From Acidothermaceae bacterium (lineage in GTDB: Bacteria > Actinomycetota > Actinomycetes > Acidothermales > Acidothermaceae), in assembly GCA_025934355.1 (NCBI GenBank), contig JAICYF010000009.1, forward strand, positions 1 through 32,725: a stretch of 32,725 bases of DNA, in the 5' to 3' direction. The notes under the pieces were generated by a model, which ran no database searches, was not told where the DNA came from, and worked only from the letters and a program-made list of their open reading frames with translations. The first letter of the stretch is position 1. Each line of letters starts with the position of its first letter. Shown here in pieces: positions 5,038-29,861 of this stretch. The translations under genes were made by a program, and so were the position numbers.

Positions 5038-5529
5038 ATGCCGTTCGCGCGCAAGCTATCGCCGACTAGCAAATCCGGGCCTGTCCACGGCATCGACCGG
5101 TTAATCGGCGACGTGCGCACCGGCCGCTTTGAGCGCAGCCTCGCCGCCCTCACGGCGGGCGGTGCGCTAGTCACGACCGCTGAGATCTACATGTCGCACG
5201 ATTCCGCGAGCTTTGGCAATCGCACGATGTGGTGGCCGATCTTTGTCATGCCGACGCTGATTCCCGCCGGAATCGCAGCGGTGTTCTCGAGGCGCGCGGC
5301 GAAGACCGTGTTGCCGGTGTCGTCGGTGCTGGTCATCGCCAATGGTTTGCAGGGCACGTACCTGCACGCACGCGGGGTGAGCCAGAAGCCCGGCGGCTGG
5401 AAGCTCGGGCTTTACAACATCGAGATGGGTCCGCCGTTGTTCGCGCCGCTGCTGGCCACGCTGGTCGGCGGCATGGGGCTGCTCGCCTCGATACTGCGCC
5501 GCGAGGAAGACCCGAAGGTGCCGGCCTGA
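5038..5529 (+). CDS. Small integral membrane protein of unknown function
   Basis: 163 aa, about four hydrophobic segments; AGGAG 9 nt upstream; abuts the next gene. Confidence 0.8.
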   Translation: MPFARKLSPTSKSGPVHGIDRLIGDVRTGRFERSLAALTAGGALVTTAEIYMSHDSASFGNRTMWWPIFVMPTLIPAGIAAVFSRRAAKTVLPVSSVLVIANGLQGTYLHARGVSQKPGGWKLGLYNIEMGPPLFAPLLATLVGGMGLLASILRREEDPKVPA

Positions 5530-6236
5530 TGCCTTATCGCGCACCCAACCAACGAGCTGTCACGCCGCAAAACCGCGGCCGCTTTCCCGGCTACGACGTT
5601 CTCGACGAAGTCGAGCGATGGGACGACGTGACGGCGGGCGCCGTGCTGGAGCGGCTGACGCCGATCACCGACTTGTCGTTCTTCAGCAAGGAAGAGGACG
5701 CGATTGCGACGCCGTTGTGCGACCTGCTGTTAGCCCAGGACGGCGAACCCAAGATACCGGTGGTGGGGTTGATCGACGTCCGCCTCGCGTTGGGCGAAGG
5801 CGACGGCTGGCATTACGACGATATGCCGCCCGACCCGCAGGCGTGGCGAGAGTCGCTGCAGCACCTCGATGACGACGCGCTGACGGTCTTCAGGTTGAAG
5901 TTCGCCGCGCTGTCGCGCGACCAGCAGGCGTCGATTGTGCAGGCGGTGCAAGACAAGTCGTCGTCCAGCGAATCGTGGCACGATAAGCCCGCGCAACAGG
6001 TGTGGAGTCTGTGGACTCGCTACGCCTGCGCGGCGTTCTACTCCCATCCATGGGCGTGGAACGAGATCGGTTTCGGCGGACCCGCGTATCCCCGCGGCTA
6101 CAAGAACCGGCACGTGGGCGGTCGCGAGGCGTTCGAGGTTGCCGATCACGCCGATCGCGACCCCGTGCCGTTCGCGAGTCGTGTCGAGGAAGCGCGGCGC
6201 AACCACGCAAAGCTGGTGGAGTCGGGTAACCGATGA
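5529..6236 (+). CDS. Gluconate 2-dehydrogenase subunit 3-like protein
   Basis: FYSHPWAWNEIGFGGPAYPRGY and LTPITDLSFFSKEEDAIATPLCDLLLAQ match the gluconate_2-dh3 pattern. The ORF-track entry begins at 5229, but ATG 5529 follows the upstream gene directly. Confidence 0.82.
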   Translation: MPYRAPNQRAVTPQNRGRFPGYDVLDEVERWDDVTAGAVLERLTPITDLSFFSKEEDAIATPLCDLLLAQDGEPKIPVVGLIDVRLALGEGDGWHYDDMPPDPQAWRESLQHLDDDALTVFRLKFAALSRDQQASIVQAVQDKSSSSESWHDKPAQQVWSLWTRYACAAFYSHPWAWNEIGFGGPAYPRGYKNRHVGGREAFEVADHADRDPVPFASRVEEARRNHAKLVESGNR

Positions 6237-7891
6237 GGCACCGGCTTCTGGGGCTCGAAGACGTGCGGCGCCGCAATGAGTCGGCGTGGCTGATCCCGAA
6301 CGACGGCTCGCGCGACAACCACCGGCTGCGTGACGACATGCGGCGCTTCCCCGACTCCGAGGAAGTGGACCTCGTTGTCGTTGGCGCAGGCGCAGGCGGC
6401 AGCGTGCTCACTCAGCGGATGGCTCGCGCAGGGTGGAAGGTCGTCGCTTTGGACGCCGGGCCGTTCTGGGACCCGGACGCCGACTGGGTCAGTGACGAGC
6501 GGGCGTCACACCATCTGTATTGGACGGAACCACGGCAGATCGGCGGCGCCGATCCGGTGCCGCTTGGCAGCAACAACTCCGGTCGAGGCGTCGGCGGCTC
6601 GATGGTTCACTACGCCGGTTACACGCCACGGTTTCACCCCTCCGATTTCCGGGTCGCGACATTGGACGGCGTCGGTGCCGACTGGCCGATCGCGTATGAG
6701 GATTTGCGCCCGTACTACCAGACGATCGAAGAGGAGCTGCCGGTCGCGGGTGAAGACTGGCCGTGGGGCGACCCGCACCGCTACCCGCAGCAGGCCCACC
6801 CGGTTGGCGGCAACGGTGAAGTCTTCATGCGTGGCGCGCGGGAGCTCGGCATCGTCGCGAAGGTGGGGCCGGTCGCCATCACGAACGGCCGCTTCGGCAA
6901 TCGCCCGCATTGCATCTATCGCGGGTTCTGTTTGCAGGGCTGCAAAGTCAACGCCAAGGCGAGCCCGCTCATCACGCACATCCCCGACGCGCTCGCGCAC
7001 GGCGCGGAGATACGAGCGAACAGCCACGTCTCGCGGATCCTTGTCGACGACGAGACCGGCCGGGTCACGGGAGTCGTTTACATCAAGGACGGCGTTGAGC
7101 GCCGCCAGCGGGCGCGAGTCGTGGCGGTCGCCGGGTACTCGATCGAGACGCCGAGGCTGCTGCTCCTCTCGTCGTCCAAACGCTTTCCCAACGGCATTGG
7201 CAACGAGCACGACCAGGTCGGGCGCTACCTGATGGTGCAGGGCGCGCCGCAAACGGCGGGTCGGTTCGAGGACGAGGTGCGCATGTACAAGGCGCCTCCA
7301 CCCGAGGTCACCAGCGAGCAGTTCTACGAGACCGACCCCCGAAAGCCGTACAAGCGCGGTTGGTCGATCCAGACGGTCAGCCCGTTGCCCATCACCTGGG
7401 CGGAGCATGTCGCCGCGCAAGGGCATTGGGGTGAGACGTTGCGCGAGTACATGCGCGACTACGTGCACTGGGCGGTGCTCGGCGCCCTGTGCGAGTTCTT
7501 GCCAATGCCGGAAAACCGGGTGACGTTGGCCGACGAGCTCGACCGGCACGGGCTCCCCGTGGCGCATTTTGCCTACAGCCAAAGCGAAAACGACCATCAA
7601 CTGGTCGACGCGGCGCAGGGCGTGATGGAGGACCTACTGCGAGCCGCGGGCGCGTCGGAGGTGATGACCATCAAGCGTTACGCGCACCTGGTGGGCGGAG
7701 CGCGGATGGCGGCGCGGCCGGAGGACGGCGTGGTCGACGCGCATCAGAAGGTCTTCGGTGTCGAAAACTTGTTCCTGTCGGACGGCAGCGTGCTGCCGAC
7801 GCAAGGCTCAGCGAACCCGGCACTCACCATCATGGCGTTGGCCGCCCGGTTAGCCGACCGTCTCGCCGGTCCCGTTTCTATGGTGCGATAG
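6233..7891 (+). CDS. GMC family FAD oxidoreductase
   Basis: DLVVVGAGAGGSVLTQRMARAGWKVVALDAG (Rossmann FAD motif), RGVGGSMVHYAG, C-terminal HLVGGARM...LFLSDGSVLPTQGSANPALTIMALAARLADRL. Confidence 0.94.
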   Translation: MRHRLLGLEDVRRRNESAWLIPNDGSRDNHRLRDDMRRFPDSEEVDLVVVGAGAGGSVLTQRMARAGWKVVALDAGPFWDPDADWVSDERASHHLYWTEPRQIGGADPVPLGSNNSGRGVGGSMVHYAGYTPRFHPSDFRVATLDGVGADWPIAYEDLRPYYQTIEEELPVAGEDWPWGDPHRYPQQAHPVGGNGEVFMRGARELGIVAKVGPVAITNGRFGNRPHCIYRGFCLQGCKVNAKASPLITHIPDALAHGAEIRANSHVSRILVDDETGRVTGVVYIKDGVERRQRARVVAVAGYSIETPRLLLLSSSKRFPNGIGNEHDQVGRYLMVQGAPQTAGRFEDEVRMYKAPPPEVTSEQFYETDPRKPYKRGWSIQTVSPLPITWAEHVAAQGHWGETLREYMRDYVHWAVLGALCEFLPMPENRVTLADELDRHGLPVAHFAYSQSENDHQLVDAAQGVMEDLLRAAGASEVMTIKRYAHLVGGARMAARPEDGVVDAHQKVFGVENLFLSDGSVLPTQGSANPALTIMALAARLADRLAGPVSMVR

Positions 7892-8017: not shown

Positions 8018-9034
8018 ATGAAGGTGGCGATGCTCGGGCCGATTGCGTGGCGCACGCCGCCTCGGCACTACGGTCCATGGGAGCTCGTCACCAGTTTGCT
8101 TACCGAGGGTCTGGTCGTACGCGGCATCGACGTCACCCTGTTCGCGACCTTGGATTCACAGACCAGCGCGCAGTTGCAAGGCGTGAGCCCGCACGGGTAT
8201 GCCGAGGATCCTTCGATGGACGGCCGGGTGTGGGAGGCCATGCATGTGGCACATGCGTTCGCGCAGTCAGCAGAATTCGAGATTGTTCATAACCAGATGG
8301 ACTGGCTTCCACTGGCGTTCGTCGAGCACTGCGACGCGCCGATGCTAACGACGATCCACGGCTTTTCGGGCGCCGGCATCCTGCCCGCCTACGCCAATGC
8401 GCGTTCGAGGTACGTGGCGATATCGGACGCCGACCGCTGCCCTGACCTCGACTATGTCGCGACCGTTCATCATGGAATCGACCTCGACGCCCTGCCGTTG
8501 CGGGAGACCGCTGGCGACGACCTCGTTGTGTTCGGGCGCATCCATCCTGACAAGGGCACCGCCGACGCGATCGACATCGCCCGCAGATGCGGTCGACGTC
8601 TCGTGATCTGCGGCATCATCCAAGACGCCGTCTACTTTGCCGATCGGGTCGAGCCGCGTGTCGACGGCGACCGAGTCGTCTACCGTGGTTCGGTAGGTGC
8701 CCAGGAGCGCGCAGAGGTGTTGGGTGCGGCGGCCGTGCTGCTGCATCCGATCTCGTTCGACGAGCCATTCGGCCTTTCCGTCATCGAGGCGATGGCCTGC
8801 GGGACGCCGGTCGTTGCCTACCGGCGTGGCTCAATGCCGGAAGTGGTCGACGAGGGCGTGACGGGGTTTCTCGTCGATGACGTCGCGCAGGCGGTGCGCG
8901 CGGTCGAGCGAGCGGCGGGTCTTAGCCGGCGAACGGTGCGGGAAAAGGTGGCGGCGCGCTTCGGCGTCGATCGCATGGTCGACGACTACGTTCGCGTCTA
9001 CGAGCGCATTGCGGCGAGCAGTTCATCGACGTGA
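8018..9034 (+). CDS. GT4-type glycosyltransferase
   Basis: MKVAMLGPIAWRTPPRHYGPWE; VVFGRIHPDKGTADAIDIAR; HPISFDEPFGLSVIEAMACGTPVVAYRRGSMPEVV. ORF-track start is 7973; ATG 8018 follows an AGGGG. Confidence 0.93.
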   Translation: MKVAMLGPIAWRTPPRHYGPWELVTSLLTEGLVVRGIDVTLFATLDSQTSAQLQGVSPHGYAEDPSMDGRVWEAMHVAHAFAQSAEFEIVHNQMDWLPLAFVEHCDAPMLTTIHGFSGAGILPAYANARSRYVAISDADRCPDLDYVATVHHGIDLDALPLRETAGDDLVVFGRIHPDKGTADAIDIARRCGRRLVICGIIQDAVYFADRVEPRVDGDRVVYRGSVGAQERAEVLGAAAVLLHPISFDEPFGLSVIEAMACGTPVVAYRRGSMPEVVDEGVTGFLVDDVAQAVRAVERAAGLSRRTVREKVAARFGVDRMVDDYVRVYERIAASSSST

Positions 9035-10467
9035 GCCCAGGCGACGCCGATGCGCGAGTCGCCGATGCCGTACGGCAGCCAAAGTCGCCCGTCATGAATG
9101 ACGCTGCCGCAGGAGTAAACGACGTTCGGCACGTAGCCATAACGTTCGCGGTCGGTGCCTTGCAGCAGCGGCTCCTCCAACTGCGCGATGACACGGGTCG
9201 GATCGTCGAGGTCGAGGAGCATCGCGCCGATGGTGTACCTGCGCATCGGCCCGACCCCGTGCGTGAGGACCAGCCAGCCTCGGTCGGTCTCGATCGGCGA
9301 GCCGCTATTGCCGACCTGAACCACCTCCCACGACGCTTTGGGCGCCTGGATCACGCTTGGCTTTCCCCAGACCAGCCCGTCGTCGGAACGTGCCACGCAG
9401 TTGCTCTCGCCGTCCGACCTGCATAGCGACCAGTGGCGACCGTCGACCAGTCGCGGAAACAGCGCCATGCCTTTGTTGCGTGCCGCCGAGCCGGCGAGGC
9501 GGTGTGCGCGGAACGTTCGCAAGTCAGGACTGGTCAGGAGCCTTGGGGCTATCACACGCCCGTCGTATGCCGTGTAGGTTGCCCGATACTCAACCGTTCC
9601 GTCGTCGCCCATGAACCGTACGAGTCGCGCGTCTTCCAGCCCGTTGCTCTCGTCCGGCACCGATGGCAACAACACCTGCTGGCTGATCGCGACGTCGTCC
9701 GCGAAGGAGACCTCGTAGGCCGAGGCGACTAACCGACGTAGGTTATCGAGCGTTGCGGCGCTGCCCGGTTGGCCGAGGAGATCTTGATGTGCCTCGGCAA
9801 GCGCATGCTCAAGTTCGGCGCCCGTGAAGTTATCGGGCAGCGCGGCCAGCACGCTGTGCGAGAGCCCGTTGATGCGTCCCTGATCCGCCAGAACGGCTCG
9901 CAGATGGTCCCTGGTCCACGTCGCGGCATGACTGGTTCCAGTCACCACGGGCAGCACCCGCGGTTCGAACTGCCACGAACCCGCACCGATTACCGCGGTG
10001 CAAAAGCCCAGCGAAGAGAGGTGCCCTTCCCCAATGGCCCGCAAGGTGAGGGCGACCCGAGTCTGTCCGGCCTGCAACCCGCTCTGATCGGGGTCCAACA
10101 CGACGCTGGGATTGCAGAGCGCAGCGCCCTCGATCGCGTACTCGGCCGTGAAGCTCGCACCCATCAGGAGGGTGCGGGCCTGGCTCATCGGGATGGCGGC
10201 TTGCAGGTGCGAGCTGATCGTCGACGCGTGCTCGTTGAGCAAGCGGATGAAGTCGTGGTGCCGGCACGAGAACTCGTCGATCAGATCGGCTGTGGCCCGT
10301 TCGACGTCCGCTTCGGGTAGCGCAAGAACGCGAGCGACCACGGCGCTGGCGCGTGAACGTCCGCTCGGCAACTCCTCGCCAGGCAGGAAAAGTCGGGCGA
10401 TTACCCGAGCAGGGTCAGGCAGCAGTGCCTCGTCGGTGTGGTGTATGACGGGCGCTTGCGTGTTCAC
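8998..10467 (-). CDS. GH130 family protein (beta-mannoside phosphorylase/hydrolase-like) with N-terminal helical extension
   Basis: NGLEDARLVRF, YTAYDG, RNKGMALFPRLVDGRHWSLCRSDGES, GLVLTHGVGPMRRYTIGAMLLDLDDPTRVIAQLEEPLL-type motifs. GTG 10467 overlaps the upstream stop (GTGA). Confidence 0.88.
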   Translation of the reverse strand: MNTQAPVIHHTDEALLPDPARVIARLFLPGEELPSGRSRASAVVARVLALPEADVERATADLIDEFSCRHHDFIRLLNEHASTISSHLQAAIPMSQARTLLMGASFTAEYAIEGAALCNPSVVLDPDQSGLQAGQTRVALTLRAIGEGHLSSLGFCTAVIGAGSWQFEPRVLPVVTGTSHAATWTRDHLRAVLADQGRINGLSHSVLAALPDNFTGAELEHALAEAHQDLLGQPGSAATLDNLRRLVASAYEVSFADDVAISQQVLLPSVPDESNGLEDARLVRFMGDDGTVEYRATYTAYDGRVIAPRLLTSPDLRTFRAHRLAGSAARNKGMALFPRLVDGRHWSLCRSDGESNCVARSDDGLVWGKPSVIQAPKASWEVVQVGNSGSPIETDRGWLVLTHGVGPMRRYTIGAMLLDLDDPTRVIAQLEEPLLQGTDRERYGYVPNVVYSCGSVIHDGRLWLPYGIGDSRIGVAWAHVDELLAAMRS

Positions 10468-11489
10468 GTCAACACACCGAGCCGCTTTGCATGCTGAGCA
10501 GTCGAGAGCAACGCAAGTGTTGATTCGGCACCCTGGTTTAGATTGCAACCGTGGCGTTGCAGACCATCGAAGCCGCCGCCGGTCGCGGGATCGAACATCA
10601 TGGTTCCGTTGTCATTGTCGCCGCCGAACCAGGCCCAGGCCATGCACACGCCGCGCAACCATCGAGGGTCATCCGTCACGTCGTACGCGCGCGCGCACGC
10701 CTCAGCGAGGGTGGCCGCCTCGACAGGTTGCTGGTCGAACTGCGGCCCCGACTCACCCGGGCTTCGCCCAGCGACGCCGGTTAGGGACAGGTGTCCGTCA
10801 GTGGTCTCGACGGAGAGCAGGAATGTGAGCAGCCGAAGCCCATGTGAGTGTGCTGCGGGGTCGGGCAACGCCTCCCCCGCGACCAACAGCGCATCGGCGA
10901 TCGAAGCATTCGCGTAGGTCATCCGCGGCTCCGGCCATGGCCAATCGCTCGTACCCTCATCGGCGCCGATCGCCGCCACGGCATCCGTGAGGAGCTCTCG
11001 CGCGGCCAGCTCGTCGGGACGACGGAGCAGAAGCTCGCCGGCGCCGAGCGCAGCGAAGGCCATTGCTCGCCGGTGCGGCGACCGGCGGCGGGCGGCGGTC
11101 CGAAAACCGAGGAGTGCGGTTGCCCGCATCGCTTGTGTGTGCGCCTGCACCGCGGCCACACCAAGACCCCACAGCGCGCGACCCCACCAGTCGCCGAGCG
11201 CGGGCTCGTCCTCCCAATCGCCGTCCGCGCTCATGCGGTTGTGACACGATCCGTCGGGTTGCACCGCCGTCAACGTGAAATCGAGATACTGCCTTGCAAG
11301 TCGTTGCAGCCGGGCATCCGGGCGTGGTTCGCGACACGTCACGACGAGCGCGCGGGAGACATCATCGAGGCAGTACCCGTGCTCGCGGCGTGGATCGCGA
11401 TGTAGTGCGTGTTCGAACAAGCCTCGACCATCTGTCAGCCGCTGGAGATGATCGAAGATGGGCGCCGACGCGACACCCGCGAAGCTCAC
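10464..11489 (-). CDS. Predicted alpha/alpha-toroid (glycan-processing-like) protein
   Basis: 341 aa, helical repeats; GYCLDDVSRALVV, EDEPALGDWWGRALWGLG, GGGFDGLQRHGCNLNQGAESTLALLS; GTGA-coupled to genes on both sides. Confidence 0.7.
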   Translation of the reverse strand: MSFAGVASAPIFDHLQRLTDGRGLFEHALHRDPRREHGYCLDDVSRALVVTCREPRPDARLQRLARQYLDFTLTAVQPDGSCHNRMSADGDWEDEPALGDWWGRALWGLGVAAVQAHTQAMRATALLGFRTAARRRSPHRRAMAFAALGAGELLLRRPDELAARELLTDAVAAIGADEGTSDWPWPEPRMTYANASIADALLVAGEALPDPAAHSHGLRLLTFLLSVETTDGHLSLTGVAGRSPGESGPQFDQQPVEAATLAEACARAYDVTDDPRWLRGVCMAWAWFGGDNDNGTMMFDPATGGGFDGLQRHGCNLNQGAESTLALLSTAQHAKRLGVLT

Positions 11490-12613
11490 GCCGCGAGTCG
11501 CGCGTTGATCAGGCGGGCGGCCAATCTGCGGTATCGCTCAGCGACCGCTGGCCATAGCAACTCAGGCGCAGTCGCGACGGCTGCTCTTGTCATCCCCGCC
11601 GCCAGCTCACGATGGGTTAACAAAGTGCGCAACGCTTCTGCGATGGCGACCGGATCTTTGTGCGGCACCAGCAAGCCGGCGCCGTCGCCGAGCAACTCGA
11701 TGGCATGCGGGAACCGGGTGGCGATCACTGGCTTGAGCGCCGCGACCGCTTCAATCAGTACCCCGGACGTCACTTGGTCGGTCGAGTCGTAAGGCAGCAG
11801 GACGACATCGGCCGCGAACACCAGGTCGGCGAGTGCGGCGCGGTCTCGGTAGTGGCTGTCGAAGCTCACCCGGCCAGCGAGCCGGAGCGCCTGCACTTCG
11901 TGCGTCAGCCGCCTGCGGTACGCCTCGCCCTCGCGCGCGAGCACCTTGGGATGGGTCTGCCCAGCGACCAGGTACCGCGGCGGGGGGTAGAGGTCGCCGA
12001 GCAGGCTCATCGCTTGGATGCCCCACTCGATTCCCTTGCCGGGACCGATCAGCCCCCACGTCAAGACGGTGGGCTCGACGCTTCGAAAAGTCGGTACGCG
12101 GCTCGGCCCGAACGCCGGGGCACCATGAGGAATGACACTGACTTTGGCCATGTCCACCGAATAGCCAGCCGCAAGGCGATCTCGGGCAGTCGCGGTCATC
12201 GTCACCACCGCGTCGGCCGAAGATGCGATCAGCTCGAGAACGGTTCGCTGGTGAGACGTCGGTGCGCTAAGCACGGTATGCAGGACGACGATCGACGGGA
12301 TAGTCAGTGCGGACAGCAAACCGACGACCTCGTCGCCGTCCGCCCCGCCATAGAGGCCGTATTCGTGCTGGACGATGGCGACGTCGTTCGCGGCCAACAT
12401 GCTCGCCGCGCGCTCAGCGCTGTTCGGGTCGCCCGCGAGTAGCTCTGCGATGACTTCGGGCCCGGGCCGTGGCTGGGGCGTGTCGACGACGCGGACGACG
12501 CTCCCGACCGCGTCGTGGGCGTTCGCAAGCTCGGCAAAAAGCGACGACGTGAAGGTCGCCACGCCGCAAAGTGTGGGCGGATAGGTACTGACAAAACCGA
12601 AGCGTGTCGTCAC
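11486..12613 (-). CDS. GT4-type glycosyltransferase
   Basis: FVSTYPPTLCGVATFTSSLFAEL; IVQHEYGLYGGADG; VLTWGLIGPGKGIEWGIQAMSLL; LPYDSTDQVTSGVLIEAVAALKPVIAT. GTG 12613 preferred over the 12829 start. Confidence 0.9.
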   Translation of the reverse strand: MTTRFGFVSTYPPTLCGVATFTSSLFAELANAHDAVGSVVRVVDTPQPRPGPEVIAELLAGDPNSAERAASMLAANDVAIVQHEYGLYGGADGDEVVGLLSALTIPSIVVLHTVLSAPTSHQRTVLELIASSADAVVTMTATARDRLAAGYSVDMAKVSVIPHGAPAFGPSRVPTFRSVEPTVLTWGLIGPGKGIEWGIQAMSLLGDLYPPPRYLVAGQTHPKVLAREGEAYRRRLTHEVQALRLAGRVSFDSHYRDRAALADLVFAADVVLLPYDSTDQVTSGVLIEAVAALKPVIATRFPHAIELLGDGAGLLVPHKDPVAIAEALRTLLTHRELAAGMTRAAVATAPELLWPAVAERYRRLAARLINARLAA

Positions 12614-20651: not shown

Positions 20652-21224
20652 GTGCCCGCGAGGATCTTGGCTCCGCTCGTTGGCGAGCCGCTCCCGCTCG
20701 ACTTTGTGAACACGCGTCCGTTGCGCGCGCGGGGTGTCGCCGCGCCAGCCGACCAATTCGGTTCGGTATCGGGCCTGCAGCAGTGGCTGGCGATGGAGGC
20801 CGACCGGTTGTCCTATGTCGAGATCACCGAGCCGTTGCGGCGATCGGTGATCGAATTGCGCGAGCAAACCGGCGCCGCGCTTGACGCGGTGGTCGACAGC
20901 CTGGTGCCGCCGCAGCCGACGATCGACGCGATCAACGCCGCGCTGCGCGGCGCGTCGAGTCACGCCGTCTTGCGCTGGTCGGGCACCGGCGGGTACCTCG
21001 AGGTGATTCGCGACGCCGACGGCGACGGTGCGTTGCTCGGCGCCCTCGCAGAGGCGGCGGCTGAGTACCTTGCCAGCGAGCTTTGCGCCAAGACGCGGCG
21101 GTGCGAGGCGCCTGACTGCGACTTGCTTTTCTCGCAGACCCATCCGCGTCGACGGTGGTGTTCGTCAACGGTGTGCGGCAACCGCACCCGGGTGGCGCGC
21201 TACTACGACCGGCACAAGAACTGA
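20652..21224 (+). CDS. CGNR zinc-finger (ABATE-type) putative regulator
   Basis: C-terminal CEAPDCDLLFSQTHPRRRWCSSTVCGNRTRVARYYDRHK carries the CGNR motif; N-terminal LDFVNTRPLRARG typical of the family. Confidence 0.92.
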   Translation: MPARILAPLVGEPLPLDFVNTRPLRARGVAAPADQFGSVSGLQQWLAMEADRLSYVEITEPLRRSVIELREQTGAALDAVVDSLVPPQPTIDAINAALRGASSHAVLRWSGTGGYLEVIRDADGDGALLGALAEAAAEYLASELCAKTRRCEAPDCDLLFSQTHPRRRWCSSTVCGNRTRVARYYDRHKN

Positions 21225-21270: not shown

Positions 21271-21957
21271 GTGGCCTCCGCCAAGCGCACCGCGCCCGAT
21301 CGGCCCGTCAACAGCGACAGTCCTGAACATGGCATGTCGAGCCGGCCAAGGCTGCTTGCCGCCATCGGGTTCGGCGTGGTCGGCGCGGTGGTCACCGGAG
21401 TGCTCGCCGGCTGGTCATACGCCGGGCTTGTCGGGTGGGACGTCGCCGCGTTCGTGCTCGTGTTGGCGACCTGGTTCAAGCTCTGGCCGATGGACGGCGA
21501 GGTCACCGCGCGCCACGCGGTGCGCGAAGAGCCAGCGCGCGCGATCACCGATCTGCTGCTGGTCGGGGCCAGCCTGGCCAGCCTGGTCGGCGTCGGCTTC
21601 GCGGTGGTCGCCGGCAACAACGCGCACGGCGCGGAAAGCGGCCTGCTCGTGGTGCTCGCCGCGTCAACCATCGTCGTCTCATGGAGCGTGGTGCACACGA
21701 CGTTCACGCTGCACTATGCCCGCATCTACTACAGCGGTCCGGACGGCGGTGTTGACTTCAACAACGACGACTCCCCGCGCTACTCAGACTTCGCGTATCT
21801 CGCGTTCACCATCGGAATGACCTTCCAGGTGTCCGACACCAATCTGACGTCCGGCGACATCCGCCGCGCGGCGTTGCGCCACGCGCTGCTGTCATATGTG
21901 TTCGGCGTCGTCATCATCGCGGTGATGATCAATTTGCTCGCCGGGTTGTCGCACTAA
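21271..21957 (+). CDS. DUF1345 family membrane protein
   Basis: VVSWSVVHTTFTLHYARIYYSG...YSDFAYLAFTIGMTFQVSDTNLTSGDIRRAALRHALLSYVFGVVIIAVMINLLAG matches DUF1345. Confidence 0.88.
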   Translation: MASAKRTAPDRPVNSDSPEHGMSSRPRLLAAIGFGVVGAVVTGVLAGWSYAGLVGWDVAAFVLVLATWFKLWPMDGEVTARHAVREEPARAITDLLLVGASLASLVGVGFAVVAGNNAHGAESGLLVVLAASTIVVSWSVVHTTFTLHYARIYYSGPDGGVDFNNDDSPRYSDFAYLAFTIGMTFQVSDTNLTSGDIRRAALRHALLSYVFGVVIIAVMINLLAGLSH

Positions 21958-23516
21958 CGCCGAAGCGCTCGTCCGCAGTCCGACGTCACGACCGACCCGT
22001 CTTTGAACGCCAGAACGCCGTTGACGTACACGTCGTCGACACCGGTGGCCAGCCGTCGCGGATCGTCGTAGGTCGCGTTGTCGGTGACCGTTGTCGGGTC
22101 GAGGACGACGAGATCGGCGGCGAGTCCTGCTCGCACGAAACCGCGGTCGGCAAGGCCGAATCGGCGGGCCGCCCGACCGGCGAGGTGGGCGGCGGCCTCG
22201 CCCCACGTCCAGTCGCGTCTGTCCCGGGTGTGGGTGCCGAGGCAGCGCGCAAACGCGCCCCAGGCGCGCGGATGCGGCGATCGACCGAGAAAAATCCCGT
22301 CCGATCCGACGAGCTGCACGTCGTGTCGAAGCAGCGCGCTCACCTCGTCGTCCGAGTTCGTCGGCGGGTGCCGAAAGACCGCGCCGACGTCTAGCCGGGC
22401 GGCGATGAGCAGCTGGCAAACGAAGTCGCCGACCGGCCTCGCGGCGCGGTCGGCCGCCGCGGTCAGGAGCATCCCCTCGGCCCACGAGAACGCGGGCGCG
22501 CCGACGTGCGACAGCCTGGTGCGGGCCAGCTCGTCGGCCTTTGCCGGAAACCAATTCACCGCCAGCTCGGCCCGAACGCGGTTGTCCTCCAGACGGCTCA
22601 GGGTGGCTTCGGCGCCGCCCTCTTGGAGATCGGGCGGCAAGGCGGTCATCGCGAGAATCGACGAACCGAACACGTAGGGGTAGCTGTCGAAGGTGACGTC
22701 GATGTCATCGGCGAGCATCCGATCGACCAACCCGCTTAGCAGGTCAGCGGGTCCGTGGTAGTGGCTGATATGCGCGGCGACACCGCTGCGGTCGACGATT
22801 TCTCTGACTTCGGCCATCCCCCGAGGCGCCGCGGCCTCATAGCCCCGCATGTGCGTGACATAGACGCCGTCGGCCGACGCGACGAGTTCGCACAACGCAG
22901 CAAGCTCTGCGACGTCGGCAAAACTGCCGGGAACGTAGTCAAGACCCGTCGACAAGCCGACGGCCCCATCGTCGAGCGCCTGTTCCAGCATCGCGCGCAT
23001 CGAGGTCATCGCGGCGGCGTCGGCAGGGACGTTTGCGGCGCCGAGTGCGTCTAAGCGCAGGTTGCCGTGTGGCACGAGCGTTGCCACGTTGAGCGGGGTC
23101 GCCCGATCGTAGGCCGAGAGCAGGTCGACGACCGAGCGCGGTGGCGCGTGGGTCGGCCAGCATCCGTTGACGGCGGCGAAGTACTCCGAGACATACCGCG
23201 ACGTCTTAGCCGAGGCCGGGGCGAACGACAGGCCGTCCTGCCCGACGACGAAGGTTGTGACGCCCTGCGCCAAAGCGGCGACTTGCGCGGCGGGGTCGAA
23301 CACCAACGCGTCGCCGTGCACGTGCGCGTCGATAAATCCGGGAAAGAGCAGCCTTTCTCGGCACTCGACGACCCGTCGGGCCTCGGCGTTTTCGAGCCCG
23401 CCTGATTCGCTGACCACGGCAATGCGGTCGCCGGCGAGTGCGACGTCGGCGCGCCGGGGCGGCGAACCGTCGCCGTCGACGACCGCGCCGCCACGCAGCA
23501 CGACGTCGAACATCAC
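21954..23516 (-). CDS. N-acyl-D-amino-acid deacylase (D-aminoacylase) family amidohydrolase
   Basis: DVVLRGGAVVDGDGSPPRRADVALAGDRIAVV; FPGFIDAHVHGD; THMRGYE; ISHYHG; GSDGIFLGRSPHPRAWGAFARCLG. Confidence 0.87.
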   Translation of the reverse strand: MMFDVVLRGGAVVDGDGSPPRRADVALAGDRIAVVSESGGLENAEARRVVECRERLLFPGFIDAHVHGDALVFDPAAQVAALAQGVTTFVVGQDGLSFAPASAKTSRYVSEYFAAVNGCWPTHAPPRSVVDLLSAYDRATPLNVATLVPHGNLRLDALGAANVPADAAAMTSMRAMLEQALDDGAVGLSTGLDYVPGSFADVAELAALCELVASADGVYVTHMRGYEAAAPRGMAEVREIVDRSGVAAHISHYHGPADLLSGLVDRMLADDIDVTFDSYPYVFGSSILAMTALPPDLQEGGAEATLSRLEDNRVRAELAVNWFPAKADELARTRLSHVGAPAFSWAEGMLLTAAADRAARPVGDFVCQLLIAARLDVGAVFRHPPTNSDDEVSALLRHDVQLVGSDGIFLGRSPHPRAWGAFARCLGTHTRDRRDWTWGEAAAHLAGRAARRFGLADRGFVRAGLAADLVVLDPTTVTDNATYDDPRRLATGVDDVYVNGVLAFKDGSVVTSDCGRALRR

Positions 23517-24715
23517 GCGCCAATCGCGGTGGCCGCGGCATCAAGCCCGCTCAAGGGCATCAGTCCGTAGTGATAGAAATCAACCGCCGCCGCGCCGCTT
23601 TCCCTTGCCACATCGACTTTCTCGCGCAACTCGGCCGCTGTCGTGTAGTCGGGGCCACCGTGCCGCAACACGCATCGCAACCGCGTGCCGGCACACGCCC
23701 TCGCGTAGCTGGCGACGTCGAGCGCCACCCGGCCAACGTCCTTCGCGTACGCGAGCGCGACGTATTCGTCAACGGCCGACGCCACCGCGCTCGCGTCGAT
23801 GCCGAGCCGCCACGCGTCGGCACAACTCGAAGCTCCGGCCGGCGCCCCCGTGGCGTAGCCCTTCAACGCGCCGGTTTGGTCGATGTAGCCGAACCTGACT
23901 CCGTTTTCGCGGGCCGCCTCAGCGCAGCGGGCGGCGAGCGCGGTCGTGGTGGCTTCTCGCACCACGAGGTAGTCGAGCAGGCCTGGACCGCAACGGCGGG
24001 TTAGCTCATCGCGGTCGGGGGTGCCGCCAGTCGTCGCAGGGTCGCGAAGCTCATCCCGGACGACGTCGCGCACCCGTGCGGCCAGTGCTGCGACGTCGAC
24101 GCGGTCAGTCGCGCGCGAGCCGCAAGCGGCGCAAAAGCACAATGAGAGGAGAAAGTCGGCCGTCGGCGACATGGGCACGAAAGCGCGTTCGTGGTGAGCG
24201 CCATGCGAGAACGCCGCGTGATGCAACGATTCGGCGACGATCAGTGCCGGACCAAGCCGTGCGACGTCCGTCGTCAGCGCGATCGCGTAGTCGAGGACCT
24301 CGGCGGACGACGGGCACAGGTCGCTGCGGTAGCAGTCGCCGAACGCGTTCGTGACCGCGAGTTCTGGTCGTGCGCGGGCGAGTCGTCCGTTGTGCAGGTA
24401 CACCGTCCAGGCGTGCCACGACAAGCCGCCGTCCACGAGCTCGGCGGCGACCTGCGAAAGCTGAGGCCGGCTGGCGAGCCGCGGCCGCAACTCGCCGCGA
24501 TAAAGCGCGTCGTCGGGCGCGAAGTAGCAGGCGCCTTCGTCGCGTTGTGCGATCGCTCGCCGGGGATTGTGCGGCAGCAAATCGCGCGCCGCGTGATAGA
24601 CCGCCGCTAACGCGGCCGCGGAAAACCCCTGCTTCGCAAGGCGCGCGACGACCTCTGCAACCCCTTCGTCGACGAAGTCGTCGACGAACGCGTAGACCGC
24701 TGAGTCAACGGTCAC
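23513..24715 (-). CDS. Uncharacterised protein, possibly a glycoside-hydrolase-like TIM barrel
   Basis: 400 aa; WTVYLHNGRLARARPELAVTNAFGDCYRSDLCPSSAEVLDYAIALTTD, IVAESLHHAAFSHGAHHE, LSLCFCAACGSRA; GTGA-coupled to the deacylase. Confidence 0.75.
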   Translation of the reverse strand: MTVDSAVYAFVDDFVDEGVAEVVARLAKQGFSAAALAAVYHAARDLLPHNPRRAIAQRDEGACYFAPDDALYRGELRPRLASRPQLSQVAAELVDGGLSWHAWTVYLHNGRLARARPELAVTNAFGDCYRSDLCPSSAEVLDYAIALTTDVARLGPALIVAESLHHAAFSHGAHHERAFVPMSPTADFLLSLCFCAACGSRATDRVDVAALAARVRDVVRDELRDPATTGGTPDRDELTRRCGPGLLDYLVVREATTTALAARCAEAARENGVRFGYIDQTGALKGYATGAPAGASSCADAWRLGIDASAVASAVDEYVALAYAKDVGRVALDVASYARACAGTRLRCVLRHGGPDYTTAAELREKVDVARESGAAAVDFYHYGLMPLSGLDAAATAIGA

Positions 24716-24745
24716 GGCGGACGACTGTCACTCTCGCTGTCACTG

Positions 24746-25135
24746 TCACTGTTTCTGTCGCAGCGCCGCGACGACGTCTATCTCGACCAAGATGCGAGGG
24801 AGCGCCGAGCCCACCGTCGTCCGGACCGGAAAACCGTCGGTGAAGAACTCCCCGTATGCGGAGTTGAAAACGGCGAAGTCGCGCGCGACGTCGGCTAGGT
24901 GCACCGTCGCCTTCACGACGTCTTCGAAGCCAAGCCCGGCCGCCTCGAGCACGACGCCGATGTTGCGCATCACCTGCCGGGTCTGCTCCCCGATCTCGTC
25001 GCCCACGACGTCGCCGGTCTGCGGGTCGATCGGACCGAATCCGGCGGTGTAGAGGAATCCGTTGGCTTCGACGGCGTGCGAGTACGCGCCGCCGGGGGCG
25101 GGCGCGCCTGCGACCTGCAGGCGTCGCAGCGGCAT
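24746..25135 (-). CDS. RidA (YjgF/UK114) family enamine/imine deaminase
   Basis: GGAYSHAVEANGFLYTAGFGPIDPQTGDVVGDEIGEQTRQVMRNIGVVLEAAGLGFEDVVKATVHLADVARDFAVFNSAYGEFF is the RidA pattern; AAGGAG upstream. Confidence 0.93.
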   Translation of the reverse strand: MPLRRLQVAGAPAPGGAYSHAVEANGFLYTAGFGPIDPQTGDVVGDEIGEQTRQVMRNIGVVLEAAGLGFEDVVKATVHLADVARDFAVFNSAYGEFFTDGFPVRTTVGSALPRILVEIDVVAALRQKQ

Positions 25136-25150
25136 CCCGGTCTCCTTTCG

Positions 25151-26098
25151 TTAGCGGGTGACGGGGTCGGACCGGCGGGCGAATGCCGTCAGCTCGGCGC
25201 GGGTGGGCAGCCCTTCCCAGTCGCCTGGCGCGGCGACCGCGAACGCGCCGACCAGGTTGGCGGTCTCCAGCGCTCGCGCGGGCGTGGCGCCGTCGAGCCA
25301 CGACGCCAGGTATCCAGCGACGAACGCGTCGCCCGCTCCGACCGGGTCGGCGACGGGCACCGAGATGGACGGGCCGCCGAACGGTTTCCCGTCGATGTCT
25401 GCCAGGTAGCCACGGTCGCCGCGTTTGATGATGGCGTGTCGCGGCCCCAACGCGGCCAGTCGGGTCGCGGCGTCGGCGTGTTCGACAACGCCGACAACGA
25501 GGGCGGCCTCGTGGTCCGACGCGAAGACGACGTCGCACTGCTTGACCAGCTCACCCAGGACGGCGGCCGCCTCGTCGTCCGGCCAGAGCCTGCTGCGGTG
25601 GTTGAGGTCGAGGCTGACTAGCACGCCGTTCGCCCGCGCGATCTCGACCGCTCGGAACACGGCGGCCCGCGCAGTCTGGCTCAACGCCGGCGTGACGCCG
25701 GTGACGTGCAGCACCTTTGCGGAGGAGATCACATCCACCGGGAGGTCGTCGGGCCGAAGCCGCGAGCCCGCGCTGTCGCGGCGGGCGTACATCACCTCGG
25801 TGGTGGCGGTGGTGCGTCGGACCTTCAGCATCAGCCCGTTCGCCGCCTCGTCGACGATCGCGTGCGAGACGTCGACCCCCTCGGCCCGAAGTTCGCGCAG
25901 CACCAGCTGGCCGATCTGGTCGCCGCCCACCCGGCCGATCCACGTCGCGTGGCGCCCGAGCCGAGAAACGCCGATGGCGACGTTGCTCTCCGCGCCGGCG
26001 ATGCCAAGCACCATCCGGTGACCGGTGCGCAACGGACCCACCTCATCGGCGGCCAACACGCCCATCGTCTCGCCGAGTGTGACGAGTTCGTGGGTCAT
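25151..26098 (-). CDS. kdgK: PfkB-family sugar kinase, probable 2-keto-3-deoxygluconate kinase
   Basis: GETMGVLAADEVGPLR; GAESNVAIGVSRLG; YARRDSAGSRL; SLDLNHRSRLW; DPVGAGDAFVAGYLA. Substrate assignment rests on KdgK-like residues and the adjacent KDPG aldolase. Confidence 0.85.
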   Translation of the reverse strand: MTHELVTLGETMGVLAADEVGPLRTGHRMVLGIAGAESNVAIGVSRLGRHATWIGRVGGDQIGQLVLRELRAEGVDVSHAIVDEAANGLMLKVRRTTATTEVMYARRDSAGSRLRPDDLPVDVISSAKVLHVTGVTPALSQTARAAVFRAVEIARANGVLVSLDLNHRSRLWPDDEAAAVLGELVKQCDVVFASDHEAALVVGVVEHADAATRLAALGPRHAIIKRGDRGYLADIDGKPFGGPSISVPVADPVGAGDAFVAGYLASWLDGATPARALETANLVGAFAVAAPGDWEGLPTRAELTAFARRSDPVTR

Positions 26099-26754
26099 GC
26101 GGACGGACCTTCACGGGCGGCCCGTACGGCGTCGATCAGCTGCTTCGCCCGAGCCGACAACGCGCCGAGGTCGCCGTTGTCACGCAATGCGTCGCCGAAC
26201 AGCGGGCCGCCGACTCCAACCGCAATCGCTCCGGCGGCGAAGTACTTTGGCACGTCGGCCACCGACACGCCGCCGGTTGGAATCAGCGGAATGTCGGGCA
26301 GCGGAGCGCGCACGTCACGAAGGTACTGCGGCCCGACCGCGGACGCCGGAAAGACTTTGACCGCAGCCGCGCCCGAAAGCCAGGCGGCCACGATTTCGGA
26401 CGGCGTAAGTGCGCCCGGAAACACCGGAATCCCTTGTGCGGAGGCAAATTCCACCACATCCGGAACCACGCTGGGTGCCACGATGAACTTGGCGCCCACA
26501 TCGATGCACTGGCGCGCCTGTTGCGTGGTCAACACCGTCCCGGCGCCGACGCAGGCTGTTTCGCCGAGTGAGGCGGCCAGGGCGGCGATGGCCTCAATCC
26601 CCCCCGGCGTCGTCATGGCCACCTCGACACAGCTGACGCCCGCCTGCACAACGGTCTCAACGGCGGCGACGATCCGTTGCGTCGACGGCGCGCGCGCGAT
26701 CGCCACCACACCCGTGGCGGTGAGCTCGGCGGGTAACGCGGGACGGTCGGGCAT
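26095..26754 (-). CDS. eda: 2-dehydro-3-deoxy-phosphogluconate (KDPG) aldolase
   Basis: VVAIARAPS; CVEVAMTTPGGIEAI; VGAGTVLT; AAVKVFPASAVGPQYLRDVRAPLPDIPLIPTGGV with catalytic Lys. ATG 26754; the ORF track uses TTG 26757. Confidence 0.92.
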   Translation of the reverse strand: MPDRPALPAELTATGVVAIARAPSTQRIVAAVETVVQAGVSCVEVAMTTPGGIEAIAALAASLGETACVGAGTVLTTQQARQCIDVGAKFIVAPSVVPDVVEFASAQGIPVFPGALTPSEIVAAWLSGAAAVKVFPASAVGPQYLRDVRAPLPDIPLIPTGGVSVADVPKYFAAGAIAVGVGGPLFGDALRDNGDLGALSARAKQLIDAVRAAREGPSA

Positions 26755-26766
26755 CAAGCGTCCTCG

Positions 26767-26806
26767 ATCTCGGGAATCTCGGGAATCTCGGGAATCTCGG
26801 GAATCT
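26767..26806. repeat. 9-bp tandem repeat (ATCTCGGGA)x4 plus partial between DSD1-like and eda genes
   Basis: Direct reading: ATCTCGGGA at 26767, 26776, 26785 and 26794, followed by ATCTT. Confidence 0.97.
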
Positions 26807-28038
26807 TAGAAATAGAGCCGAACACAGTCGACAACCCTTCGATCGTCGTCGAGCAACGGGACCAACCGCCAGTGGTCGAGCGCAGTGCACGGGTGGGAGA
26901 TGCCGAGGCACACGAGGTCGCCGACGTCGAGGGCTTCGCTCGCGGCGAGGTTCAAGAAGGCGTGCTGGTCGTTCAGTCGCACGACCTCGCCGGCGAGCGC
27001 GGTCAACTCCCCCGCCGCGTCGCGACGCAGCAGCGGCGTCGGCATGCCGGCGTCGAACGACACATCGCGGCGACCGGCGCCCAGCAACGCCAGCCCCGGT
27101 TCGGGCCTCGACCACACCTGGCACCAGACCTCGATGGCTGGTCGTAGCAGGGCTGCCAACGACGAGGTTCGCGAGTAAAGACCGTCGTCGTGGGTGATGT
27201 AGGAGCCGCTGCGCAACACCCGACGCACCGGTCGAGAGGTGTTGATCGGACGACGCAGCGCCTCGGTCACGACGTCGACATGCCCGCTGCCACCGCAGGT
27301 GAGGATGAGCTCGTCGGCGGCGGAGTCGAGCAGGCCGCCGGAGTCGAGATCCTCGAGCAGCTCGCCCAAACCCTCGGCGTACGCGCGCACGGCGTCGAGT
27401 GTTGTGGCGTCGCGGTTGTGACCCAGGGGCCCCTCGTATCCGGCGACGCCGACCAGAGACAGGCCGGGCAGTTCGCGCACGCGCGCGGCGAGCGCGCGGG
27501 CCGCGCCGTCCGACCTGACACCGGTGCGGCCCGCCGGCAGGCCGCGCTCGACAAGGACCTTGACCGGCCTGGGCGCGTCGAGGGCCGATTCGCTGATCAT
27601 CTCGGCGCCGGCCGCCGAGTCGACGTAGCAGTAGAAGTCGAACTCCGGGTCGGCGAGCTCGCGGGTGACCCATTCGACGAACGAGCGGTCGACGAGTTCG
27701 TTGGCGAGCAGTATCCGGCCCAGGCCGAACGCGCGGTAGCCGCGGGCTTGCCATGCAGTCGCGGCGGTCATGGCCCACGCGCCCGCCGCGAGTTGGCGGG
27801 CGAACAGTGCGGGGGCCATCGTGGTTTTCCCGTGTGGCGCAAGGGAAATCTCCCGCTCGGCGCACCATGATGCGAGCACGTTGACGTTGTTGTCGATGGC
27901 CGACTCGCGCAAGGCGAGGATCGGCCAGCTGAAGCCCGCGTCGAACAGCTGCGGCTTCGCGGCGACGAACTCGGCAACGCTCACGCTGATCGCGGGAAAG
28001 CCTTTGCATCGCCAGTCGATGATGTCGTCGCCCGCCAT
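26806..28038 (-). CDS. PLP-dependent D-amino-acid deaminase/dehydratase (DSD1/alanine-racemase-like fold)
   Basis: FSWPILALRESAIDNNVNVLASWCAEREISLAPHGKTTMAPALFARQL (PLP Lys region); LTCGGSGHVDVV; GSYITHDDGLY; ISHPCTALDHWRLVPLLDDD (DSD1-type metal motif). ORF-track start is TTG 28056; ATG 28038 is used here. Confidence 0.9.
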   Translation of the reverse strand: MAGDDIIDWRCKGFPAISVSVAEFVAAKPQLFDAGFSWPILALRESAIDNNVNVLASWCAEREISLAPHGKTTMAPALFARQLAAGAWAMTAATAWQARGYRAFGLGRILLANELVDRSFVEWVTRELADPEFDFYCYVDSAAGAEMISESALDAPRPVKVLVERGLPAGRTGVRSDGAARALAARVRELPGLSLVGVAGYEGPLGHNRDATTLDAVRAYAEGLGELLEDLDSGGLLDSAADELILTCGGSGHVDVVTEALRRPINTSRPVRRVLRSGSYITHDDGLYSRTSSLAALLRPAIEVWCQVWSRPEPGLALLGAGRRDVSFDAGMPTPLLRRDAAGELTALAGEVVRLNDQHAFLNLAASEALDVGDLVCLGISHPCTALDHWRLVPLLDDDRRVVDCVRLYF

Positions 28039-28118
28039 GGACGGCCATTCTGCCAACGCGCGTGGTGACGTTGCTCACGAGCGCTTAGTCCGGGCAGGTA
28101 TACGCCGATCACATAAGT

Positions 28119-28823
28119 GTGTTCGCCGCCGCCGCCCTTGCCGTCGCGACGACGACAGTTCCGCACCACGCCATCGGCGCGCTCGCGACCGCGTGTGGCG
28201 TCATCGCCGGCGGCGTCGGTGTCTGCACCAGCTGGCCGCAAGCGTGGCGGTTGTGGATCGGCCGACAACACGCTGGCCTCGCCCTCTCGACCAATGTGAT
28301 GGGCGTGTTGTACGGCGTCGCCTGGTTGCTTTACGGCGTGCTTTGTCACAGCGAGGTGCAGATCCTGACCAGCGTCGCCGGGCTGATCGGCGCGACCGCG
28401 GTGCTTGGCGGCCATATCGTGCGCGCCCGGATCGGACCCCGTTCCTGGCTGCCCGGTTTCGCGGTAGGTCTTTGTGTCATCGCCGGCGCCAGCGCCAGCG
28501 GCCGGGCGACGCTCGGCGTCGCGGCGTCCATCGCGACGATCACCGGGGTGGTGCCGCAGTTGCTCGCCCTGCTCGATGATTCCCGCGTCCAAAGCTCCGC
28601 CGGGGTGTCGCGCTCGCGCTGGGCACTCGCGGTCGCGTGCAACCTGCTGTGGGTCGGCTACGGCGCGATCGTCGGCGACCGGCTCATCCTTGCGAACTCA
28701 ACGATCATCGCGCTGCTCGCGGGCACGATCGTGTTGGTCGCCACGCGGTCACGGGCCCTGGATCCGCAAACTCGCGCTTCGGCACCGCTGTGGCGAGGCC
28801 CAAGCACGAGTTTCGAGGTCTAA
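28119..28823 (+). CDS. PQ-loop/SWEET-like sugar transporter, apparent 7-TM (3-1-3) architecture
   Basis: Two internal repeats: GVGVCTSWPQAWRLW...NVMGVLYGVAWLLYGVL...LTSVAGLIGATAVL and ATITGVVPQLLALL...ALAVACNLLWVGYGAIVG...STIIALLAGTIVL, joined by hydrophobic WLPGFAVGLCVIAGASA. Confidence 0.8.
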   Translation: MFAAAALAVATTTVPHHAIGALATACGVIAGGVGVCTSWPQAWRLWIGRQHAGLALSTNVMGVLYGVAWLLYGVLCHSEVQILTSVAGLIGATAVLGGHIVRARIGPRSWLPGFAVGLCVIAGASASGRATLGVAASIATITGVVPQLLALLDDSRVQSSAGVSRSRWALAVACNLLWVGYGAIVGDRLILANSTIIALLAGTIVLVATRSRALDPQTRASAPLWRGPSTSFEV

Positions 28824-28880: not shown

Positions 28881-29861
28881 ATGCCGTTACGCGTGCTTGT
28901 GCTGGACGATTACCAAGACGTCGCGAAGACCATGGCTCCGTGGGGTCAGCTTTCCGACCTCGAGCCGCAGCTTGACGTGCGAACGACGCACCTGGACGAC
29001 GCGGCGCTGCGCGGCGCGCTCGCCGACGCCGACGTGCTGGTCGCGATGCGGGAGCGCACCCCGGTGCCGCGCGACGTGTTGGCCGCCGCGCCCCGGCTGA
29101 AACTGCTTGTGACGACCGGCATGCGCAACGCGTCGATCGACCTCGAGGCCTGCCGCGACCGCGGGATCGAGGTGCGCGGCACGGCCGGTCTTCGGACGTC
29201 GACCGCAGAGCTGACCTGGGGACTGATCATCGCGCTGGCCCGCGACATGTGCGGCGAAGAGCAGGCACTGCGCGCCGGCCGCTGGCAGAGCCGTTCGGGG
29301 CGGCTCGGGTTGGAATTAGGCGGCGCCCGGCTTGGGGTGATCGGACTCGGCCGGCTCGGCGAGAAGGTCGCTCGGGTCGGGTTGGCTTTCGACATGGACG
29401 TCGTAGCCTGGAGCACGAACCTCACCGCTGAGCGGGCGGCGGAGGTCGGCGTGCGCGCGGTGAGCAAGGAGGAGCTGCTCACGTCGTCCGACTTTGTGAG
29501 CTTGCACCTGGTCTTGAGCGCCCGCAGCAAAGGCGTCATCGGCGCCGCCGAGCTGGCGATGATGAAGCCAACCAGCTACCTGGTGAACACCTCGCGCGGT
29601 CCGCTGATCGACCAAGACGCCCTGGTCAGCGCATTGCGCCGCGGCCAGATCGCCGGCGCCGGGCTCGATGTGTACGACGAGGAACCGCTGCGGCCCGGAC
29701 ATCCCTTGCTCGGCGCGCCCAACACCGTGCTCACCCCGCACATCGGTTACGTGACCCGCGCCACCTACGAGGTGTGGTGGCGGCATGTGGTCGAAGACAT
29801 CCGGGCGTGGGCCGACACCACCCGAACCGGGGCCGCGCCGAGCCCGCTGCGCGTGCTGTAG
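28881..29861 (+). CDS. D-isomer-specific 2-hydroxyacid dehydrogenase
   Basis: LGVIGLGRLGEKVARVGLAFDMDVVAWS; YLVNTSRGPLIDQDALVSALRRGQIAGAGLDVYDEEPL; TPHIGYVTRATYE. Confidence 0.94.
   Translation: MPLRVLVLDDYQDVAKTMAPWGQLSDLEPQLDVRTTHLDDAALRGALADADVLVAMRERTPVPRDVLAAAPRLKLLVTTGMRNASIDLEACRDRGIEVRGTAGLRTSTAELTWGLIIALARDMCGEEQALRAGRWQSRSGRLGLELGGARLGVIGLGRLGEKVARVGLAFDMDVVAWSTNLTAERAAEVGVRAVSKEELLTSSDFVSLHLVLSARSKGVIGAAELAMMKPTSYLVNTSRGPLIDQDALVSALRRGQIAGAGLDVYDEEPLRPGHPLLGAPNTVLTPHIGYVTRATYEVWWRHVVEDIRAWADTTRTGAAPSPLRVL

Follow-up and report, generated by a model that had tools for sequence, protein, structure and literature searches.

An actinobacterial operon for the probable catabolism of an N-acylated 2-amino-2-deoxyaldonic acid

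The ong (oxidative chitin utilisation) cluster of Pseudoalteromonas prydzensis ACAM 620 has been proven by experiment to degrade N-acetyl-D-glucosaminate (GlcNAc1A; PMC9537276). In this pathway OngB deacetylates GlcNAc1A, the fold III pyridoxal phosphate (PLP) enzyme OngC gives 2-keto-3-deoxygluconate (KDG) and ammonia, and KdgK phosphorylates KDG; OngD is an essential RidA protein whose role is not established, and the GH20 enzyme OngA cleaves a small oxidised glycoside to liberate the acid in Pseudoalteromonas (PMC9537276). The clusters of Vibrio, Klebsiella and Serratia add the 2-keto-3-deoxy-6-phosphogluconate (KDPG) aldolase kdgA, and complete ong pathways have been reported in Gammaproteobacteria and one Betaproteobacterium (PMC9537276). 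Here we describe a six-gene operon from an Acidothermaceae bacterium, lying from 28038 down to 21954 on the minus strand of a 32,725-nucleotide stretch of contig JAICYF010000009.1 (the window), which is part of a 3.19-Mb genome bin that is 84% complete. The operon probably encodes a pathway devoted to the breakdown of an N-acylated 2-amino-2-deoxyaldonic acid, GlcNAc1A being the most likely one; we draw this reading of the reactions and substrate from gene content, protein families, operon conservation, metal-site residues and a predicted fold.

An original prediction, made from the DNA letters alone, had placed at this position a minus-strand run of six genes with 4-bp overlaps or gaps of up to ∼50 bp, and all the open reading frames (ORFs), families and spacings agree with it. 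In order of transcription, the DSD1-like gene (dsd1) is followed after 48 bp by the aldolase gene (eda), which overlaps the kinase gene by 4 bp; gaps of 15 and 30 bp then lie on either side of ridA, and the gene for a 400-residue protein overlaps that of the amidohydrolase by 4 bp. The run is a genuine operon and not an artefact of ORF calling, because five of the six genes keep their order in a relative from another genus of the same family (G058; dsd1-eda-kdgK-ridA-deacylase, ∼60–65% identity). The divergent PQ-loop and 2-hydroxyacid dehydrogenase genes beside the operon are also kept in G058.

Proposed route and linkage of its genes

In the proposed route, the amidohydrolase would first deacylate the substrate, using a metal site with aspartate in place of the usual cysteine. 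The DSD1-like PLP enzyme would then convert the resulting D-2-amino acid to KDG with loss of water and ammonia, and RidA would dispose of the enamine/imine intermediate of this step. KDG would next be phosphorylated to KDPG by the PfkB kinase, and the aldolase would cleave KDPG into pyruvate and glyceraldehyde-3-phosphate. The chitin-oxidation route of marine Gammaproteobacteria to which the original prediction pointed is the ong pathway (PMC9537276), and all five families of its cytoplasmic enzyme set are present in the window. The gene set that marks an ong pathway (a D-aminoacylase-like deacylase, a fold-III PLP deaminase, RidA and KdgK) is encoded together here, with an aldolase in addition, as in Vibrio.

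The aldolase matches the Pfam KDPG/KHG aldolase family (PF01081, 4e-39) and exceeds the TIGR01182 cut-off (168 bits against 156); it also scores with models of aldolases for 2-keto-3-deoxy-6-phosphogalactonate (KDPGal). The kinase is a PfkB protein (PF00294, 8e-52) whose top solved relative is the KDG kinase 1v19 (3e-59). Its top NCBIfam model is a kinase for KDG and 2-keto-3-deoxygalactonate (KDGal), scoring 205 bits, below the cut-off of 400, and its nearest NCBIfam models are bifunctional KDG/KDGal kinases. RidA matches PF01042 (2e-31) and TIGR00004 (111 bits against a cut-off of 106). Two more aldolases of the KDPG/KHG family are encoded in the same genome. The first has another PfkB kinase as its neighbour and the second follows the gene for an enolase-superfamily dehydratase, and the other KDG-type routes of the genome thus appear to have their own enzymes. 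Because these two aldolases have other neighbours, the kinase–aldolase pair of the operon looks dedicated to the operon's own route.

Across 40 DSD1-centred actinomycete loci, a deacylase match was found within 6 kb in 15, the kinase in 12 and the aldolase in five, and the kinase was present in none of 13 loci without DSD1. One of the 15 deacylase matches (L082) is a different amidohydrolase and was left out of the linkage count. The kinase was linked in 9/14 loci with a true deacylase homologue compared with 3/26 without one (p = 0.001, a value that is only a guide as the loci share ancestry).

Among named organisms, the nearest to carry the gene set are Actinomycetes. A layout with ridA-iclR-kdgK facing dsd1-deacylase-eda-gntP is found in Tsukamurella tyrosinosolvens (L056), Arthrobacter StoSoilB13 (L060) and three other loci (L088, L095 and L102). 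These clusters share with the window the same five gene types and the aspartate-containing GQDG motif of the deacylase, but they differ in gene order, in having linked IclR and GntP genes and in lacking the 400-residue protein, and their DSD1 and deacylase fall in other subclades. GntP transporters carry gluconate and the family also has a D-serine carrier, so the presence of this symporter is not enough to identify the substrate. Cassettes with the order deacylase-dsd1-ridA-400-residue protein, found in Nonomuraea gerenzanensis (L057), L032 and L038, share the 400-residue protein with the window and have the closest deacylase subclade; unlike the window, they have no adjoining kinase or aldolase, and in the genomes tested the aldolases are elsewhere.

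As the kinase and aldolase are conserved in G058 and recur in Tsukamurella, Arthrobacter and other actinomycetes, it is most likely that they are not in the operon by accident. Their incidental adjacency, which the original prediction had raised as an objection to itself, was rejected on the conservation in G058 and the linkage counts.

In a further cluster (L103, 11264–16837, from G289), Opp-type ATP-binding cassette (ABC) transporter genes directly follow ridA/deacylase/dsd1/kdgK/eda and are a possible importer.

The deacylase and the deaminase

The amidohydrolase (520 residues) matches Amidohydro_3 (PF07969, 4e-22). Its top solved relatives are 9g5m, 1m7j, 3gip and 9kb1, and all the close ones are D-aminoacylases or OngB. 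The GlcNAc1A deacetylase OngB has a Cys/His/His metal site with a catalytic Asp, and its residues Glu226, Lys254, Ser290, Ser292 and Gln298 contact the sugar chain and the carboxylate (PMC12017989). We mapped these sites onto the window deacylase and onto three ong-type loci, two in Pseudoalteromonas and Vibrio plasmid records (L063 and L064) and one on a Klebsiella plasmid (L061). The three ong-type sequences all carry Cys97, Glu226, Lys254, Ser290–292 and Gln298. The window deacylase has an aspartate (Asp94) at the Cys97 position and keeps the HxH motif, His222, His252 and Asp368; at the positions of Glu226, Lys254 and Ser290–292 it has Tyr, His and Gly-Ser-Ser, respectively. At position 298 it has Glu and not Gln, next to a longer insertion, the alignment inside the insertion and near 298 being unsure. 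Tyr194, Tyr285 and Arg379, which hold the N-acyl oxygen and the α-carboxylate in D-aminoacylases and OngB, are all kept. By this comparison, the machinery for an N-acyl group beside a carboxylate has been retained and the OngB sugar pocket has not.

The GQDG motif is common to nearly all the deacylases of the actinobacterial cassettes, and a tree splits these from the ong-type group. Orthology with OngB was rejected for the window deacylase on the aspartate in place of the cysteine ligand and the absence of most specificity residues; the protein belongs to a separate Asp-ligand subfamily. No account of an aspartate metal ligand in such deacylases was found in the open literature, although one may be described elsewhere.

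Two related loci were also seen. L033 (434–10372, from G113) has a dsd1-ridA-deacylase-400-residue protein run in which the deacylase is of the Cys type (GNCG), together with enolase-superfamily, creatininase-family and class IV aminotransferase genes. The Klebsiella pneumoniae plasmid locus L061 (15–2875) carries a divergent ong-type deacylase/deaminase pair beside hpa genes, without a kinase.

The DSD1-like protein has the features of the D-serine dehydratase-like class: an N-terminal Ala_racemase_N domain (PF01168, 2e-8) with the PLP lysine motif and a C-terminal D-ser_dehydrat domain (PF14031, 2e-17). Its gene has an in-frame ATG at 28038 and an in-frame TTG at 28056. The top solved relative is 3gwq (2e-71), annotated as a D-serine deaminase, and the PHGKTTMAP motif containing the PLP lysine is common to both. 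In the tree, the window sequence forms its own lineage, and the Pseudoalteromonas, Vibrio and Klebsiella sequences cluster at 100/99; the window deaminase is thus placed outside the OngC clade. The route logic of the original prediction is borne out by the matching enzyme set and the recurring kinase and aldolase linkage, and is corrected here in that the deacylase is not OngB and the deaminase lies outside the OngC clade.

The 400-residue protein

For the 400-residue protein, searches against Pfam and solved structures gave nothing reliable, with no Pfam family over the cut-off; weak GHL10/GHL6 matches were seen only for a few of its homologues. AlphaFold2 with 24 homologues predicted a confident TIM barrel (pLDDT 94, pTM 0.94), whose Foldseek neighbours are PgaB, Cwp19, GH42 β-galactosidases and GH20 hexosaminidases (query TM ∼0.5–0.6, 10–15% identity). 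Four cysteines (C134, C193, C195 and C198) are invariant in 24/24 aligned homologues, and profile comparison aligns them with the GH42 cysteines at a probability of 73%. GH42 binds zinc at its four-cysteine site. The model resembles GH42 β-galactosidases and GHL10-type proteins in the TIM barrel, in having one cysteine before strand 4 and a CxCxxC motif after it, and in a glutamate at the end of strand 4 (Glu162, in 23/24 homologues). In contrast to GH42, the spacing before CxCxxC is longer, and strand 7 has Arg351 and Asp356 with no conserved nucleophile glutamate, so that the GH42 catalytic Glu pair is lacking. The predicted fold is thus glycosidase-like, with a catalytic pair that would differ from the one in GH42. 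Any function as a glycosidase is guesswork: perhaps this is a cytoplasmic glycosidase-like enzyme that cleaves a small oxidised glycoside and so supplies the acid, as OngA does in Pseudoalteromonas.

The original prediction had listed an additional 400-residue protein in the operon. It is present in the window and absent from the operon of G058, where the stop codon of ridA is immediately followed by the start of the deacylase gene; a 23-base run of N falls inside RidA and not between ridA and the deacylase gene. No copy was found elsewhere in the G058 genome, which is 84% complete. A core role in the pathway was rejected on this absence, which points to an accessory protein.

Named relatives of the protein are mostly from Actinomycetota. 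In 17/27 loci, one of them on a Rhizobium plasmid, a homologue has DSD1, RidA or the deacylase close by, and in none of the 27 does it have the kinase or aldolase nearby, the window being the sole place in the sample that joins the protein to kinase and aldolase. All eight f17 genomes tested have a KDPG/KHG-type aldolase elsewhere in the genome. The joining of the protein to kinase and aldolase in the window suggests, without proving, KDG as a product of the kinase-less cassettes too. The neighbours of other homologues are enolase-superfamily or IlvD/EDD dehydratases, SDR proteins and ABC permeases; a sugar-acid role therefore seems to be the common thread of these neighbourhoods. The Rhizobium phaseoli plasmid homologue (L062, 8719–9903, minus strand; 30% identity) is annotated as a hypothetical protein; encoded next to it are RidA, a DSD1-like protein, an amidohydrolase, a member of the aspartoacylase family and an ABC transporter for sugars.

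Substrate, flanking genes and relation to the ong pathway

Several observations weigh against the proposed route and its likely substrate, GlcNAc1A. The deacylase is without most of the OngB specificity residues, no AA10 lytic polysaccharide monooxygenase (LPMO) was found in the 84%-complete bin, and Sco4986 of Streptomyces coelicolor, a member of the wider deacylase group, reportedly deacylates hydrophobic N-acetyl-D-amino acids (N-acetyl-D-Phe and -Trp). The DSD1 homologues nearest by score outside the family sit in loci without kinase or deacylase, and OngC also accepts D-Ser and D-Thr (PMC9537276). The operon might accordingly scavenge ordinary N-acyl-D-amino acids (D-Ser, D-Thr or similar), with the kinase and aldolase serving another sugar-acid route and merely sharing the transcript. 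The D-serine deaminase name of 3gwq and the class IV aminotransferase and creatininase-family genes of L033 are consistent with this, but the products of D-Ser and D-Thr need neither kinase nor aldolase, and both genes turn up repeatedly with the deacylase and DSD1, across several lineages and in several layouts. We therefore consider such scavenging unlikely.

The same chemistry could also serve a substrate of different configuration (N-acyl-D-galactosaminate or -mannosaminate) or with a different acyl group, the product then being KDG or KDGal. The bifunctional models nearest to the kinase, the KDPGal scores of the aldolase and the differences of the deacylase pocket from OngB would all fit; the sole experimentally known case of this enzyme set nevertheless acts on GlcNAc1A (PMC9537276), and we regard a different isomer or acyl group as improbable. 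Slightly more improbable still is a reading in which the amidohydrolase has some role other than N-deacylation, such as that of a lactonase or other hydrolase in a sugar-acid route, with the operon handling an unacylated aminoaldonate. The replaced cysteine ligand is compatible with this, as is L041, where an Asp-type amidohydrolase and a 400-residue homologue lie near SDR dehydrogenases, an IlvD/EDD dehydratase and ABC permeases. Against it stand the conserved Tyr194, Tyr285 and Arg379 and the identity of all the close solved relatives.

Breakdown of an N-acylated aminoaldonate, most likely GlcNAc1A, is thus the preferred explanation. Where the acid would come from is a separate matter. The bin has one GH18 domain match and one GH20 gene, the latter on another contig; no linked GH20 OngA or SSS-family transporter was seen among the window genes scanned. 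LPMOs occur in 8/12 other genomes with a dsd1 cluster and are common in such genomes. An origin in oxidised chitin, which the original prediction named beside oxidised GlcNAc, is weak for this organism because no AA10 LPMO was found in its 84%-complete bin; neighbours or a different oxidase could also be the source of the acid. The neighbourhood search that the prediction had proposed showed dsd1, deacylase, kinase and aldolase to co-occur; one LPMO gene lies near a related cluster, at about the rate expected by chance. This is a small AA10 gene (L122, 10312–10836, minus strand) that is ∼4 kb away from dsd1/kdgK/eda in G223 and may be there by chance. It was not used as a link to chitin, as unrelated genes intervene and the locus has a different amidohydrolase.

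The features of the operon and its flanks are collected in Table 1. The original prediction saw no regulator; there is none inside the operon, but a putative one lies past its 3′ end. The G058 contig ends before the equivalent place. Comparison of the upstream region with G058 gave no clear operator. Elsewhere in the window, a gluconate-2-dehydrogenase subunit 3 gene is followed by a GMC oxidoreductase gene (5529–7891, plus strand), a probable sugar/aldonate dehydrogenase ∼14 kb from the operon that nothing ties to it, and a GH130-type phosphorylase gene (8998–10341) is flanked by two GT4-type glycosyltransferase genes (8018–12562).

Table 1. Features of the operon and its flanks in the window
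Feature	Position	Strand	Evidence
DSD1-like fold-III PLP enzyme, proposed 2-amino-2-deoxyaldonate (D-glucosaminate) dehydratase/deaminase, first gene	26806..28038	-	Pfam, 3gwq, tree
KDPG/KHG-type aldolase (Eda)	26095..26757	-	PF01081, TIGR01182
PfkB kinase, proposed KDG (or KDGal) kinase	25151..26098	-	PF00294, 1v19, NCBIfam score
RidA-family enamine/imine deaminase	24746..25135	-	PF01042, TIGR00004
400-residue accessory protein, glycoside-hydrolase-like TIM barrel, four invariant Cys	23513..24715	-	AlphaFold2, Foldseek, alignment, profile comparison
D-aminoacylase-like amidohydrolase, Asp (GQDG) for Cys metal ligand; proposed N-acyl-aminoaldonate deacylase	21954..23516	-	PF07969, solved relatives, site comparison
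Divergent (opposite-strand) PQ-loop/MtN3-like membrane protein	28119..28823	+	MtN3_slv 8e-5, just under cut-off; 55% identity, same place in G058
Divergent D-2-hydroxyacid dehydrogenase, candidate pathway link	28881..29861	+	2-Hacid_dh_C 1e-57; 66% identity, same place in G058
CGNR zinc-finger/ABATE-type putative regulator	20652-21224	+	∼730 bp past operon 3′ end

If the proposed route is correct, several actinobacterial lineages also use oxidised amino sugars, as was proven by experiment for a marine Gammaproteobacterium, and do so with a deacylase from another branch. Many genes labelled ‘D-aminoacylase’, ‘alanine racemase’ or ‘sugar kinase’ would gain a testable function, and the TIM-barrel family of the 400-residue protein, also found on a Rhizobium plasmid, would gain its first pathway context. 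Only tentatively do we suggest that Actinobacteria use two families new to oxidised amino sugar breakdown, with the Asp-ligand D-aminoacylase branch acting as an aldonate deacylase and the TIM-barrel protein as a cytoplasmic glycosidase or sugar-acid enzyme.

No actinobacterial version of the ong route was found in the open literature. The window and the ong clusters agree in their five enzyme families and in the inferred order of reactions, but the window differs in its Asp-ligand deacylase branch, in a deaminase outside the OngC group, in the extra 400-residue protein and in belonging to a different phylum. The window operon and the Tsukamurella-type clusters, which differ in gene order and DSD1 lineage, may have had separate origins or may share descent from a single old cluster. 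The kind of pathway is already known; what is new here is the deacylase branch and the accessory TIM-barrel protein, of which the latter is the most novel.

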